Below, piece after piece: positions 24,884 to 30,491 of a stretch of DNA of 30,491 bases (position 1 is its first letter; every line of letters starts with the position of its first letter). A program made the position numbers and the translations under genes. Under the pieces are notes generated by a model that searched no databases, was not told the origin of the DNA, and worked only from the letters and a program-made list of their open reading frames with translations. This DNA is from a virus: positions 1-30,491 of IMG/VR virus record IMGVR_UViG_3300028600_000016; one strand, 5' to 3'.

Positions 24884-25081
24884 CTAGATAGCGATATCCA
24901 CGTTTTTCTTCGGGAACGAGTAGACTTTCCGGGTATCTTCCGCTAGCGCTACCTGATACAGCCCGGCCTTGGTGATCTTGAGGAATACACAGGTTTTTTC
25001 TATGAAAGGCCTTGCATCGGAGTCCATCCAGTTGTCTCCGGATCTGTTGACTGTGCAGGGTGTTCCGCTCTCAATACCCAT
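24884..25081 (-). CDS. Hypothetical protein, 65 aa
   Basis: The ATG at 25081 lies near the end of the upstream gene, 11 bases before its stop. The product (MGIESGTPCTVNRSGDNWMDSDARPFIEK...) looks like a small beta barrel (TCVFLKITKAGLYQVALAEDTRKVYSF) and has two Cys. A longer frame from 25186 is the wrong-frame extension across the neighbour. No family recognised. Confidence 0.6.
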   Translation of the reverse strand: MGIESGTPCTVNRSGDNWMDSDARPFIEKTCVFLKITKAGLYQVALAEDTRKVYSFPKKNVDIAI

Positions 25082-25280
25082 CGTATCCGTGCTGCAGGTA
25101 GTGCCAGGTCCGGTTTTCAATGGCGCGTATTTGGTTGTAGCTTGGCCAGTAGTCGGGGTATAGCCGTGGTACTGGCTCCCACTCACTTGTTACGGGGTTT
25201 TTGCGCCACATCTGAGCCGAGCCTTTAGCCCAACATTCCCGATGAACCTTGGTTATTTCTCTCTCTAGCTTAGAAGTCAT
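25071..25280 (-). CDS. Hypothetical aromatic-rich protein, 69 aa
   Basis: GAGGA lies before the ATG. The product is rich in Trp/Tyr (WEPVPRLYPDYWPSYNQIRAI...) with a basic helical N-terminus. First gene of a short minus operon driven by the extended -10 promoter at 25307-25315. No family recognised. Confidence 0.62.
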   Translation of the reverse strand: MTSKLEREITKVHRECWAKGSAQMWRKNPVTSEWEPVPRLYPDYWPSYNQIRAIENRTWHYLQHGYDGY

Positions 25281-25306: not shown

Positions 25307-25335
25307 ATTATAGCACAAAAGATCCGTTTCTTTTG
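25307..25335 (-). promoter_or_regulatory. Extended -10 promoter with upstream inverted repeat
   Basis: TGCTATAAT on the minus strand (25315-25307) is a perfect extended -10 about 27 bases before the ATG at 25280. Where a -35 would lie there is instead an inverted repeat CAAAAGA/TCTTTTG (25316-25335), a candidate activator or repressor site. Confidence 0.5.
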
Positions 25336-25539: not shown

Positions 25540-25611
25540 ATGAACGACTGGAAGATATTTACACTAACCCTGGTATTGATGCTGGCTGTTTTTGTTGTGG
25601 CGGTGCCGTGA
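25540..25611 (+). CDS. Tiny membrane peptide, 23 aa
   Basis: GGAG lies upstream of the ATG, and the product has a single hydrophobic span (FTLTLVLMLAVFVVAVP). Its TGA overlaps the next ATG (TGATG), supporting translation. Role unknown. Confidence 0.45.
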   Translation: MNDWKIFTLTLVLMLAVFVVAVP

Positions 25612-25817
25612 TGAAAGAAGCAGACTCGGAATATCTCAAGAAGGCAGAGAAGCGAGAAAAGAACCGGGAATACCAGGCGGCATGCAAGAAGCGCAAACGG
25701 GATGCCGGACTGGTTCCTGTCGAGGTATGGATACAGCCGGATATGAAGTATCTTCTTACTGAGTTTGCCGACCGAATACGTGCCGCTAGATGGAGGGAAG
25801 AAACGCCGAAACCATAA
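25611..25817 (+). CDS. Small basic protein, possible ribbon-helix-helix regulator, 68 aa
   Basis: The N-terminal half is a very charged helix (KKAEKREKNREYQAACKKRKR). It is followed by VPVEVWIQPDMKYLLTEFADRIR, whose strand-then-helix pattern resembles ribbon-helix-helix DNA-binding proteins (Arc/CopG type). If correct, it could bind the palindrome over its own promoter at 25361-25372. ATG at 25611 is preferred to the GTG at 25608 because it couples to the preceding stop. It ends just before the opposing terminator. Confidence 0.5.
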   Translation: MKEADSEYLKKAEKREKNREYQAACKKRKRDAGLVPVEVWIQPDMKYLLTEFADRIRAARWREETPKP

Positions 25818-25853
25818 AAAACGCCCCGGTCTGCTCATCAACGGACCGGGGCG
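25817..25853 (-). terminator. Rho-independent terminator of the right-arm minus operon
   Basis: A perfect 10-bp GC-rich stem, CGCCCCGGTC/GACCGGGGCG (25822-25831 and 25844-25853), with a 12-base loop is followed on the minus strand by six T. It ends transcription coming leftward through 25949; on the plus strand no T-run follows, so it works mainly in one direction. Confidence 0.9.
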
Positions 25854-25948
25854 AAGTCTCAACCAGAGAGGGTATAAGAGCGTTCATTATAGCACTTTAA
25901 CCGGAGATAGAGTGAATCTGTTTCAGTTTTATTTGTTTGGTGTCATTG

Positions 25949-26584
25949 CTAGCTAACGCCTATACTGAAATCTATGGCCATTTGCTTGGCGTCTTCTAAT
26001 GTTTCCGCTGTCCATTCGCCACGTCCGCATTTCACAACGGAATAGGCGTCTTTTGCTATGTCCACTGCTTCAAGACTTCCTATTTCGTCATTTCCGATAG
26101 ATTCCAATGCCTCATCAATACTTTCAGCTATTGGGATAATCTGCTGGCTATGCAGTATCCTTATCCCGCTTCGGTCATCAAGAATCTGGCATTCGGCCCG
26201 TTTTTCGTCCGCGCGTTCCTGGCTGATGTTGGCGAAGAATTCAGCGTGATCGTTTATCAACCCTTCCGGTGTATCTGCTACGTAGTGGCAATCCCCCTTT
26301 CCACAGGTTGATCCGATAGTGAATCCGTAAATCGCCCTATGGCTCCAACCGTACCATTTCTGCTCTGTTGGGCTGAATCCTACGCCATTAGTGAGGCTTT
26401 CTGTAACTTTATGCTCTGCCAAGAATTTCAGAAGCGAGTCGTCTTCGAACCCTACAAAGGTGATATAGCTGCCGTCAAACTTGCTTACATAAGAATCCGG
26501 AATATCATCCGGGTCGCCGATGGAATCAAACCCTGTTGTCTTTTCGCTTTTTGCCACTTTTTCAAGCCATTCCTGAACTTTCAT
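25949..26584 (-). CDS. Conserved-looking phage hypothetical protein, 211 aa
   Basis: Good ribosome site (AGAGGAAAAG) before the ATG. The product has a WYGWSHRAIYGFTIGSTCGKGDCHY block (about 77-101) that recurs in unnamed phage proteins. A helical middle and a C-terminal VKCGRGEWTAETLEDAKQMAIDF segment follow. No enzymatic motif is clear. Last gene of the minus operon, 96 bases before its terminator stem. Confidence 0.7.
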   Translation of the reverse strand: MKVQEWLEKVAKSEKTTGFDSIGDPDDIPDSYVSKFDGSYITFVGFEDDSLLKFLAEHKVTESLTNGVGFSPTEQKWYGWSHRAIYGFTIGSTCGKGDCHYVADTPEGLINDHAEFFANISQERADEKRAECQILDDRSGIRILHSQQIIPIAESIDEALESIGNDEIGSLEAVDIAKDAYSVVKCGRGEWTAETLEDAKQMAIDFSIGVS

Positions 26585-26942: not shown

Positions 26943-27081
26943 CCCACACTTCCTTCTGTTCTTTCTCTGCCCGTTTTCGTTCGTGGTAAGCGTCTCGGAT
27001 CTTGCGCAGCAACCCAAATTCCGCTTCTTTCCCGGTAGGCTTGCGCTTCGGCACCGTGAACCAGCCATACTCTACTTTCAT
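26938..27081 (-). CDS. Small basic protein, 47 aa
   Basis: ATG overlaps the stop of the Lar gene (ATGA). The product (MKVEYGWFTVPKRKPTGKEAEFG...) is mostly a charged helix. It overlaps the methyltransferase remnant by five bases. Not recognised, but the coupling and composition support a real gene. Confidence 0.55.
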   Translation of the reverse strand: MKVEYGWFTVPKRKPTGKEAEFGLLRKIRDAYHERKRAEKEQKEVWE

Positions 27082-27428
27082 CCTTTCGCCCTCTCAAACT
27101 CATCGACGAGATCCTGGATCTTCTGGAACTGCCGGGTTAGCCTGCGCTTGTTGGTCTCTGTGTTCAGGTAGCAAATGTCCGTTAGTATCTTGCTCAGCGT
27201 ATCCGCTTCGTGATTCGCACGGGATACTTGCTGTTGAAGTTGTGTTAGGTCCACTGATTTTCCCTCTCGCCTATTCCACGCTTTGATTGCTTCGCTTTTA
27301 TGCGGGAACGCCACCGTTCTGGCTCCGCAGTCGTTGCATATCACACTATAATGACCATGTAGCTTCATTACCCGGTTACTGTCATCCCCGCAAAATGGGC
27401 AAGGTAACGCTTCATCTCGTTTAGTCAT
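27078..27428 (-). CDS. Lar-family restriction alleviation-like protein with coiled-coil extension
   Basis: The ATG at 27428 has AGGA just upstream; the longer frame from 27494 enters the previous gene. The first 55 residues form a Lar-type zinc ribbon: CPFCG (10-14), CNDCG (31-35) and the ending AIKAWNRR (47-54). Lar of the Rac prophage reduces type I restriction by affecting modification. Residues about 58-116 are a helical extension not present in the shortest family members. A similar C-terminal end is seen at the left edge of the window. Confidence 0.78.
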   Translation of the reverse strand: MTKRDEALPCPFCGDDSNRVMKLHGHYSVICNDCGARTVAFPHKSEAIKAWNRREGKSVDLTQLQQQVSRANHEADTLSKILTDICYLNTETNKRRLTRQFQKIQDLVDEFERAKG

Positions 27429-27439
27429 TTTCCTATTAT
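27415..27439. repeat. 25-base direct repeat, copy 1 (gene-start region of Lar gene)
   Basis: This 25-base sequence, which covers the ribosome site, ATG and first codons (MTKR) of the Lar gene, occurs identically at 27842-27866 at the start of the next gene upstream. Confidence 0.95.
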
Positions 27440-27855
27440 CCCTCCATGGCTTCCAGTGCATACTCGTATCCGTCCCAGTTATCGACGCCCGCACCTTCGA
27501 GCGCGTCCAGAAAAGCCAGTTTCCTTATTGTTTCTGCGTTTTCGTCTGCTTCAGGCCCTTGCAGCCTCGCAATGTGGTGTTCTGCCCGTAAAAGCTCTTT
27601 TTCTAGTTGGCTGATCCTCGTTCCCGCTTTTCTCGCGTCTTTTTGCAGCTGTTCGTTCTCCGCTTCCAGCGCTTTGTTCTGCATCCGCGACCCCTCCAGC
27701 TTATGGTCTGTATCGCGCAATGTGGCCTCAACCTGCTGTGTCGCTCTGGATAGCTGCTTTATGTTTACGCCATCCGGATACAACCGCTGAAACATTTCTT
27801 TCTGTCTGTCTGTGCATAATTCAAGTATTGCGTTCAAGTATTCTCGTTTAGTCAT
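27436..27855 (-). CDS. Coiled-coil hypothetical protein, 139 aa
   Basis: Begins MTKREYLNAILELCTDRQKE. The first 45 residues form a compact helical domain (FQRLYPDGVNIKQLSRA), and residues about 45-105 form a continuous coiled coil. The tail (VDNWDGYEYALEAMEG) is acidic. Similar proteins are found in phage early regions without known function. The start overlaps the stop of the P-like gene and shares a 25-base start region with the Lar gene. Confidence 0.7.
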   Translation of the reverse strand: MTKREYLNAILELCTDRQKEMFQRLYPDGVNIKQLSRATQQVEATLRDTDHKLEGSRMQNKALEAENEQLQKDARKAGTRISQLEKELLRAEHHIARLQGPEADENAETIRKLAFLDALEGAGVDNWDGYEYALEAMEG

Positions 27856-27866
27856 TTTCCTATTAT
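27842..27866. repeat. 25-base direct repeat, copy 2 (gene-start region of coiled-coil gene)
   Basis: Identical to 27415-27439. Here the repeat also encodes the last residues (IIGK) of the P-like protein, while in copy 1 the same bases are non-coding upstream of the start. Confidence 0.95.
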
Positions 27867-28271
27867 ACCTCTCGCTTCTGTTAAGTATCTCTCCGCGATC
27901 TCACGGCTTTCGGCCTTGGTTCTGCGTGGTAGGGCAAGCTGGTTTCTTCTGTTGGCTGCTGTCGGTCGCAGGCTCTTATATGCCAGTTGAAAATCCGCCC
28001 TGGTGAATGGCTTGTTGTGCGTGTCCAGGCAGTAGGTAAGCGCCTTAGCCACATATTCAAGACTCTTCCCGTCGATACTTGCCAGCCAGGACCGCTCCCA
28101 TATTTGTTGTGTCTTCTCGTCGTCCAGCGTCGCCAGGAACAATCCCCCGTAATTCGCGGCCATACTCTGAAAAAGCCGCTTGATTATCTCCGTGTCTTCC
28201 GCGCCATATTTCGGCGGCGCGGGCGCTTGCGCTTTGAGGCTTGCTCTGTGGTATTCCGCTGCTTGTTTCAT
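27852..28271 (-). CDS. Replication protein P-like helicase loader
   Basis: The 139-residue product resembles the phage replication protein P group, which recruits the host DnaB helicase. Signs are EIIKRLFQSMAANYG (about 28-42), an IWERSWLASIDG block, and KSLEYVAKALTYCLDTHNKPFTRADFQLAYKSLRP (in two parts), the family's most recognisable region. ATG at 28271 is preferred over a TTG at 28316. It overlaps the upstream O-like frame by 215 bases, which is unusual. The basic end carries NRRNQLALPRRTKAE. Confidence 0.68.
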   Translation of the reverse strand: MKQAAEYHRASLKAQAPAPPKYGAEDTEIIKRLFQSMAANYGGLFLATLDDEKTQQIWERSWLASIDGKSLEYVAKALTYCLDTHNKPFTRADFQLAYKSLRPTAANRRNQLALPRRTKAESREIAERYLTEARGIIGK

Positions 28272-28488
28272 GTCCGCTGTTTCTCGGTGGAAATATGCCT
28301 GTCCATCGGTTCGCAATAGTTGTGTCGATGGCTTCTATCTGTTGGGGTATTGTCAATTTTAGTAGTATGTTCGCGTTCTTTTTTCTGGCTAAGTCTGTGA
28401 GCGGCTTTCGTATCTCTTTGCGGTGTTGCTCGAACTCTGACCAGGCTGTTGGGTCTATGCCTTCTGGTAACGTCCAATCACTTGTCAT
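28057..28488 (-). CDS. Replication initiator O-like C-terminal domain protein, 143 aa
   Basis: Residues 5-70 (LPEGIDPTAWSEFEQHRKEI, KPLTDLARKKNANILLKL, IANRWTGIFPPRN) match the C-terminal domain of phage replication initiators, where a 'WxxFxxHRxxIKKPLT...NxWxGxFPP' layout precedes the end. No N-terminal DNA-binding domain is attached, as the upstream gene codes for something else. After about residue 72 the chain loses family character and overlaps the P-like gene in another frame, so the natural end may be earlier or a frameshift may join the two. ATG directly follows the upstream stop. Confidence 0.65.
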   Translation of the reverse strand: MTSDWTLPEGIDPTAWSEFEQHRKEIRKPLTDLARKKNANILLKLTIPQQIEAIDTTIANRWTGIFPPRNSGHETSSGIPQSKPQSASARAAEIWRGRHGDNQAAFSEYGRELRGIVPGDAGRREDTTNMGAVLAGKYRREES

Positions 28489-29247
28489 TTATGTCACCTT
28501 GTAATCTTTCTTTATAACGCCTATGGATTGATCCCCGACAACGCAATTCCTAACCCAGATATTCCCCGCTGTCGGGTGTCTCCTGATGTGCCCCCGCCTT
28601 AAATGCAGTCGAGGGCTGTTCCTGTCACCCTCAAGCTCTACCCCTCCTGTTGTTGGGTTTCTATGGCGTATAGTCAAAGTCCTGTATTCAAAAAGAGGTA
28701 ACTTCCCGTTTTTTATTCGCTTTTTGTTCAGCGCAGCGTCCGGCAGAGTTACATTAGAATCAACATTAGTACAATTCAGGATCTGGCAAAGCATCATTAA
28801 GTTTGCACCTGCAATCTGCCCCATCTGAATTAGTCCTTCTTCCGGAGTTTCCTTGAAATATTCAGTCGCTCGCCCAACTTTAAACCTATACATTCTCGTT
28901 TCTTCCACCCACGAAATACCAATAACCAAGTTCTGAGGGTGAATTTCTGTGCCTTTCCTGCCCTGGAATAAATAACACCTGATTTCTTCGTCTTTTTCTT
29001 CCTGCTCTGCAATGAGGATCATATGCTTTACTTCTGCCGCTTCGTCCCGCTTTTCCATTTCAAAATACACTATAGGAAAAGGCAGGTTCTGCCACTCTAA
29101 AAGGCTCGGCGTCGGCAGGGCATCCGTAAAAAAGAAAAACTTCGCCGCTTTCTTTATTGTTTTCTCCATGTACCCCAGGAAATTTGCCCCATCTGAGTCT
29201 CCAGGCTCTCGCGTTTGAAGTAGTTTAATTAATTTATGTGCTCTCAT
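28489..29247 (-). CDS. Conserved-looking phage hypothetical protein, 252 aa
   Basis: The C-terminal third holds SPRLHLRRGHIRRHPTAGN followed by IWVRNCVVG and IKKDYKV, a signature that recurs in unnamed phage proteins of this size. The N-terminal two thirds are alpha/beta with LPFPIVYFEMEKR and NLVIGISWVEETRMYRF strands. No catalytic motif is assigned. It is the first gene after the promoter-terminator element and precedes the replication genes, so an early role is likely. Confidence 0.7.
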   Translation of the reverse strand: MRAHKLIKLLQTREPGDSDGANFLGYMEKTIKKAAKFFFFTDALPTPSLLEWQNLPFPIVYFEMEKRDEAAEVKHMILIAEQEEKDEEIRCYLFQGRKGTEIHPQNLVIGISWVEETRMYRFKVGRATEYFKETPEEGLIQMGQIAGANLMMLCQILNCTNVDSNVTLPDAALNKKRIKNGKLPLFEYRTLTIRHRNPTTGGVELEGDRNSPRLHLRRGHIRRHPTAGNIWVRNCVVGDQSIGVIKKDYKVT

Positions 29248-29260
29248 TTATCGCACCAAT

Positions 29261-29332
29261 AAAAAAGGCCAGTCCCCTCGAATCGTTTGAGACGGGTAGC
29301 AAGCAACCCACGATCCAAAGACACTGGCCTTT
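29261..29332 (-). terminator. Rho-independent terminator (long-loop) before the 252-aa gene
   Basis: AAAGGCCAGT (29332-29323 on the minus strand) pairs perfectly with ACTGGCCTTT (29273-29264), followed by T at 29266-29261. The 49-base loop contains a GGGT/ACCC hairpin. It lies 14 bases before the ATG of the next gene, so read-through must be possible or regulated. Confidence 0.65.
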
Positions 29333-29365
29333 GTCAACTTGCTTTCTACGGGTCTCAAACCGTTG
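29261..29365 (-). ncRNA. Candidate small RNA or attenuator leader, about 105 nt
   Basis: Transcription from the promoter at 29372-29399 would begin at about 29365. The transcript first forms half of a long imperfect stem (29339-29360 with 29285-29306: 9+4+6 pairs). Its loop contains one arm of a perfect 10-bp terminator stem (29323-29332 with 29264-29273), so the two stems interlock. It ends in a run of six T. Both a free sRNA and a leader controlling the gene at 29247 are possible. Confidence 0.6.
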
Positions 29366-29371
29366 AATTTC

Positions 29372-29399
29372 ATTATACCGCGCCTGCCGTGGCGTTCAA
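29372..29399 (-). promoter_or_regulatory. Sigma70-like promoter of the small RNA / replication operon
   Basis: TTGAAC (29399-29394), a 16-base GC-rich spacer and a perfect TATAAT (29377-29372) on the minus strand. The -35 overlaps the last codons of the gene at 29396. The predicted start lies at the first base pairs of the leader stem. Confidence 0.65.
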
Positions 29400-29605
29400 G
29401 AGTCTTCGTCCATGACTTGGCGGAATGTCTTAACCCTCACTTTATAGTCAAAGCCCGTTCCAGGCTTCTTACAGAAAGCCCCGATACAGAACCCGTCTGC
29501 CAGGCAGTTGTGGTAGGCGTCTTTCTCTGGTTTAGTCAGCTCCTTGACGCTCACGCCGTCCCTGAATATCATGCGCTGCCGGTCCGTTGGTGTGCTGTAG
29601 TTCAT
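29396..29605 (-). CDS. Hypothetical Cys-containing protein, 69 aa
   Basis: The product (MNYSTPTDRQRMIFRDGVSV...) has three Cys in HNCLADGFCIGAFCKK, possibly a metal or disulfide site. Starts inside the previous gene's end (ATGA). No family recognised. Its end carries the -35 of the next promoter. Confidence 0.62.
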   Translation of the reverse strand: MNYSTPTDRQRMIFRDGVSVKELTKPEKDAYHNCLADGFCIGAFCKKPGTGFDYKVRVKTFRQVMDEDS

Positions 29606-30320: not shown

Positions 30321-30491
30321 TCACCCGAAACCGTCACCGTCACCTAAACCGTCACCTAAACCGTCACCGTACCAGAAACCTGTACCGAAACCGTCACCGG
30401 CACCGTCACCGGCACCGAAACCGTCACCGGCACCGGCACCTGAACCGAAACCGGCACCTGAACCGAAACCGGCACCGCCACCGCAACCCTC
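30321..30491 (-). CDS. Gly-X dipeptide repeat protein, C-terminal part (cut by window edge)
   Basis: The open frame enters from the right edge and ends in TGA at 30323-30321, giving 56 visible residues. Nearly every second residue is Gly, with Ala, Asp, Phe, Ser or Leu between (for example GAGDGFGAGDG). The DNA is a degenerate hexamer array (ACCGTC, ACCGGC, ACCGAA on the plus strand), which explains its repetitive look. Such Gly-X tails occur in unnamed phage early proteins and are probably disordered. Function unknown. Confidence 0.6.
   Translation of the reverse strand, partial: EGCGGGAGFGSGAGFGSGAGAGDGFGAGDGAGDGFGTGFWYGDGLGDGLGDGDGFG

Follow-up and report, generated by a model that had tools for sequence, protein, structure and literature searches.

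A candidate transcription attenuator with two mutually exclusive predicted hairpins ahead of a phage replication operon

Introduction

The leader that precedes the replication genes in an uncultured phage raises the question of what is gained by a strong promoter that is followed within about 100 nt by an intrinsic terminator and by a second stem interlocking with it. Regulation of phage replication operons is usually pictured in terms of protein repressors and N/Q-type antiterminators. An earlier note on this DNA had offered three readings of the locus: a 105-nt phage sRNA, an attenuator of the replication operon, and an RNA antiterminator in the manner of the HK022 put sites. Here, the locus was followed up computationally within the window, i.e. 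the whole stretch of 30,491 nt that was analysed (IMG/VR record IMGVR_UViG_3300028600_000016, positions 1 to 30,491). The two-rod feature is real and non-random, and with moderate confidence we read the leader as a transcription attenuator. If it is used in this way, the leader of this replication operon would act as a compact and self-contained RNA switch.

Gene neighbourhood of the leader

The first of the leftward genes on the minus strand is an RNA-ligase-like gene (phrog_14301, from 30314), and two small genes on the same strand lie between it and the leader. The gene directly upstream of the leader (29396..29605, minus strand) encodes 69 aa and overlaps the -35 box with its 3′ end; no relative of it was found. 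Past the leader, the first gene (28489..29247, minus strand, ATG at 29247) encodes a phrog_20769-like protein of 252 aa without Pfam or NCBIfam match, and the second (28057..28488, minus strand) belongs to the O-like replication initiation protein family (part of phrog_678, E 9.2e-13). The predicted structure of the 252-aa protein was of low confidence (pLDDT 62) and matched uncharacterised phage proteins only, so that it gave no hint of leader binding by this protein.

Downstream of the O-like gene, the minus strand carries a gp5.9-like gene (27436-27855) and, near it, a Lar-like gene (27078-27494), with terminase and structural genes further downstream of the latter. A Pfam match to Tad6, a type I Thoeris inhibitor (25949-26584, minus strand, E 4.6e-32), marks a candidate anti-defence gene with the gp5.9-like and Lar-like genes nearby. 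Genes for Erf, a YqaJ/RecE-type exonuclease and NinB are located on the plus strand from base 149. The nearest named records of the terminase (Phage C72C1, phiM5 and ctjtQ328) have early regions that differ from that of the window.

A 30-nt direct repeat (27415-27444 and 27842-27871, 97% identical) spans the start regions (ATGACTAAACGAGA) of two adjacent genes. Additionally, tandem repeats with a 6-nt step (minus strand GGTGACGGTTTC...) at 30325-30491 reach the contig end just upstream of the RNA-ligase gene, and the contig may have been broken at these repeats, between the leftward and the rightward early genes.

Promoter and terminator of the leader

A sigma-70-type promoter with the sequence TTGAAC-16-TATAAT, described before as near-ideal, was found by sequence match on the minus strand at 29399-29372 with a score of 10/12. 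Because a simple promoter scan over 6 kb returned 7 promoter-like sites where 6.0 were expected, the score alone is weak evidence. Across both strands of the whole window, it is the sole TATAAT preceded at 16-18 nt by at least 4/6 of TTGACA. Transcription is expected to start at 29366-29363 and thus directly at the first stem, in agreement with the earlier proposal.

The terminator hairpin (rod 2; 29264..29332, minus strand) has a perfect outer stem of 10 bp (AAAGGCCAGT/ACTGGCCTTT), in which 29332-29323 pairs with 29264-29273, and ends in a T6 run at 29266-29261, of which 29264-29266 are also paired in the stem. Stem and T-run were confirmed, as was the arm order B′, A′, B, A. Only one other T-run (25822) stands behind a perfect GC-containing stem of at least 9 bp on either strand of the window. 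What had been overlooked is the inward continuation of rod 2 by 12 pairs (29310-29321/29275-29286) and then 4 pairs (29306-29309/29294-29297), which competes directly with rod 1, the extended first stem. The underlying inverted repeat I2 has 23-nt arms (78%), and the full fold has a predicted total energy of -43.5 kcal/mol. A terminated transcript of about 105 nt (29261..29365, minus strand), as suggested before, is predicted from the anatomy of promoter and terminator.

The T6 run is separated by 13 bases from the ATG at 29247, which matches the described gene start 14 bases past the T-run, and no promoter-like site was found between terminator and 252-aa gene at the scan thresholds. By these scans, the operon would therefore have to be reached by read-through, either from the leader promoter or from upstream. 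Since the promoter stands before the terminator, plain insulation is excluded.

Rod 1 and its exclusion of the terminator

The imperfect first stem of 19 pairs is present as described and lengthens in the best fold to a rod of 29 pairs (rod 1; 29285..29360, minus strand), in which 29360-29327 pairs with 29285-29322 around a CAGU loop at a predicted energy of -31.6 kcal/mol. Rod 1, which is founded on the inverted repeat I1 (22-nt arms, 86%), is the best fold of the RNA prefix lacking the 3′ arm of the terminator, with pair probabilities mostly above 0.95, and the first 82 nt of the predicted RNA fold as a single rod. The loop had been thought to hold the terminator 5′ arm (AAAGGCCAGU); this is true for 4 of the 10 bases (CAGU), whereas the remaining 6 (AAAGGC) are paired in the apical stem of the extended rod.

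The predicted folds of rod 1 and rod 2 have no base pair in common, so that they would be mutually exclusive antiterminator and terminator hairpins. By the inner continuation of the terminator stem, the arrangement becomes an ordinary pair of this type. The pseudoknot considered in the earlier note is possible but unnecessary, given that the nested alternative is very stable.

Comparison with chance expectation

The leader RNA was compared with 4000 dinucleotide shuffles of itself. The full RNA folds at -43.5 kcal/mol as against -28.6 +/- 3.5 kcal/mol in the shuffles (z = -4.3; 3/4000 as good), and the prefix at -31.6 as against -21.9 +/- 3.5 kcal/mol (z = -2.8; 31/4000 as good). Both folds at these energies with less than 20% shared pairs were obtained in none of the 4000 shuffles. 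Fold energies this low also occur in GC-rich parts of the genome and at T-runs in phage DNA; because GC-rich stretches match it, energy was dropped as a criterion and the argument was built on the length, perfection and position of the arms. Similarly, a fold covering the 5′ arm of the hairpin was found for 332 of 1151 T-runs in phage DNA, which means that competition alone proves little.

In the 30.5-kb window, just three short-range inverted repeats reach 15 nt, namely the interleaved I1 and I2, which rank highest, and one palindrome of 19 nt. The same search at 18 nt, run over ~310 kb of DNA from other phages, yielded scattered single repeats, and among the repeats listed, up to five per locus, interleaved ones occurred only in a direct-repeat array (L024) and in an AT-rich stretch (L032).

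Refolding and co-transcriptional folding

For a nested transition of rod 1 into rod 2, the best path found climbs by a calculated ~23 kcal/mol. With this barrier, the terminator should come too late once rod 1 has formed, and together with the exclusive folds it supports the earlier suggestion that the first stem may hinder the terminator. Co-transcriptional folding was followed by a crude walk in 60 settings, which combined five start sites with four speeds and three rate constants and ignored both pseudoknots and the footprint of polymerase. The walk ended in rod 1 in 46 settings, in the terminator in 11 and in neither in 3; in this model it is the delicacy of the choice between the rods that becomes visible, not the direction in which the choice falls. 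The CAGU loop is complementary to the 3′ arm of the terminator and could provide a foothold for it.

Search for relatives

No homologue of the leader was found in the phage and plasmid collections by blastn with settings for near and distant matches, nor in IMG/VR by pattern scans with both stems and with each arm. Tblastn and peptide scans of the neighbouring genes did not lead to a relative of the leader, and no Rfam family scored above its gathering score. Ten pattern matches were rejected as relatives, since the likeness does not reach the rest of the leader; 7 of them share one common spacing and seem to be copies of a single coding stretch.

The 252-aa protein has relatives in other phages and in a Variovorax genome. 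Seventeen loci of this family in IMG/VR and one genomic locus were found, and where their upstream regions were inspected no such leader was present, which speaks against the attenuator. Two distant relatives have a simple intrinsic terminator just before the gene (L002, 1212-1245; L023, shortly before 3320), apparently without a competing rod.

The leader as a transcription attenuator

At the level of the sequence, a promoter and, behind it, an intrinsic terminator precede the first gene of the operon, and the prediction adds an alternative fold that sequesters an arm of the terminator and excludes it. These observations argue for the view, raised in the earlier note, that the leader is an attenuator of the operon comprising the 252-aa and O-like genes; further support comes from the barrier of ~23 kcal/mol and from the lack of a further promoter-like site before the gene at the scan thresholds. 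No homologous leader that would show covariation and no ligand, protein or antisense partner of the leader was identified, which counts against this view.

In the proposed course of events, transcription would start at about 29365 and rod 1 would form from its apex outward as the RNA emerges, burying the 5′ arm of the terminator, so that polymerase would read through into the operon. If rod 1 failed to form or were opened, for instance through a factor taking its 5′ arm (29339-29360) or by a change in timing, the thermodynamically stronger terminator rod would form, polymerase would leave at T6 and the RNA of ~105 nt would result. We infer that both folds are used and that some signal controls the choice between them, and partial read-through is probably the default. 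The strong promoter and the two rival hairpins would thus probably constitute a built-in on/off switch.

An improbable special form is a kinetic attenuator that works free of protein. Because rod 1 would start with the very first bases of the transcript and close up from an apex including the terminator arm, the speed or pausing of polymerase would decide whether the replication genes are transcribed or the stable RNA of 105 nt is made. If this were true, the leader would report the state of the host transcription machinery.

Alternative explanations

The main rival of the attenuator is a dedicated phage sRNA of ~105 nt acting in trans, for which read-through would be incidental and the rival rod a folding intermediate. 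A promoter followed by a terminator at sRNA distance and the very stable final fold are in line with such a function, terminated RNAs between 60 and 80 nt in length are known from phages (OOP with 77 nt and sar with 68/69 nt; PMC12197685), and a second promoter-terminator unit at 25894-25817 on the minus strand suggests a possible second use of the layout by the phage. However, no target and no sequence relative were found, the operon 13 bases downstream would be left without a recognisable promoter, and the near-perfect match of the 5′ half of the RNA to its middle would go unexplained. We regard the sRNA as unlikely, albeit worth serious consideration.

The second unit (window 25817-25915, minus strand) consists of an extended -10 element (TGCTATAAT, 25894-25886) and, ~60 nt on, a strong GC-rich hairpin of 10 bp with T6. 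It would give an RNA of ~70 nt downstream of the Tad6-like gene, and its end abuts a convergent small frame on the plus strand (25608-25817). Pairing in trans between its RNA and the leader RNA was not significant (30 of 300 shuffles did as well) and was discarded. A third perfect TATAAT, again as TGCTATAAT, is located at 25307-25315 on the minus strand, ahead of a frame for 69 aa (25071-25280) that has a Shine-Dalgarno-like sequence. Judged from these motifs, the phage may favour extended -10 promoters.

A dual RNA like IsrK of Gifsy-1, in which the terminated form would serve as an sRNA and the read-through form as an mRNA, with both of importance, would account for the layout by analogy, since a phage promoter, a leader of sRNA length, an intrinsic terminator and partial read-through into an operon are combined there as well (PMC4825925). 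The phage collection contained no sequence match to support it, and it is considered very unlikely.

Even less can be said for an element acting at the level of DNA, such as an operator pair or an origin hairpin with the RNA folds as a by-product. The long inverted arms do adjoin replication genes, as such an element might, but RNA signals mark both edges, with T6 on one side and the promoter on the other, and the two interleaved repeats are unable to extrude simultaneously.

An RNA that modifies polymerase for long-range read-through in the manner of HK022 put, as the earlier note had considered, is hardly tenable. Like putL (PMC9378689), the leader would be a structured RNA with which the transcript of an early phage operon begins; put, however, is built of two side-by-side stem-loops over ~70 nt and has no built-in terminator arm, whereas the first 82 nt of the leader form one rod containing that arm, and blastn of the phage collection at E 10 gave no relevant match. 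The least probable alternative, a leader peptide or small gene in the 41-codon frame at 29373-29248 (minus strand), which is open from ATG to a TAA abutting the ATG of the next gene, was rejected on codon usage (score -0.13; pieces of real genes, 0.14 +/- 0.10; shadow frames, -0.15 +/- 0.10), has no relatives and would start at an ATG that shares bases with the -10 box and precedes the expected transcript start.

Comparison with known systems

For the leader as a transcription attenuator, the nearest known mechanism is that of pT181 repC from a Staphylococcus plasmid, which controls a plasmid replication gene. The pT181 leader adopts two exclusive folds and has an antiterminator element that captures the terminator 5′ arm, with read-through by default (PMC4878617). 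The phage leader is alike in that two exclusive folds are predicted and the terminator 5′ arm is held by the antiterminator; no blastn match of it was found in the plasmid collection. In pT181, the antiterminator is located at the base of a 5′ hairpin, whereas here the terminator arm lies in the apex of one long rod. Moreover, pT181 is switched by an antisense RNA, while the best promoter-like site on the plus strand of the leader is weak and scores only 8/12 (TTGAGA-16-CACGAT, 29287-29314).

The nearest phage layout, compared as layout alone, is that of Gifsy-1 IsrK, whose sRNA pairs with the read-through mRNA and opens its translation (PMC4825925). The neighbouring genes differ between the two loci, and the pairing in trans known for IsrK has no known counterpart in the leader.

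HK022 put, which depends on the zinc-binding domain of the RNA polymerase beta′ subunit, resembles the leader as a structured RNA directly behind an early phage promoter. The ~70 nt of put form two side-by-side stem-loops that bind polymerase (PMC9378689). In place of these separate stem-loops, the leader has one rod that competes with a terminator.

Lambda OOP RNA, whose 3′ end is formed at an intrinsic terminator close to the O gene, is likewise a short phage RNA. Its length is 77 nt (PMC12197685). OOP is antisense to cII, whereas the leader RNA has the same sense as the replication operon.
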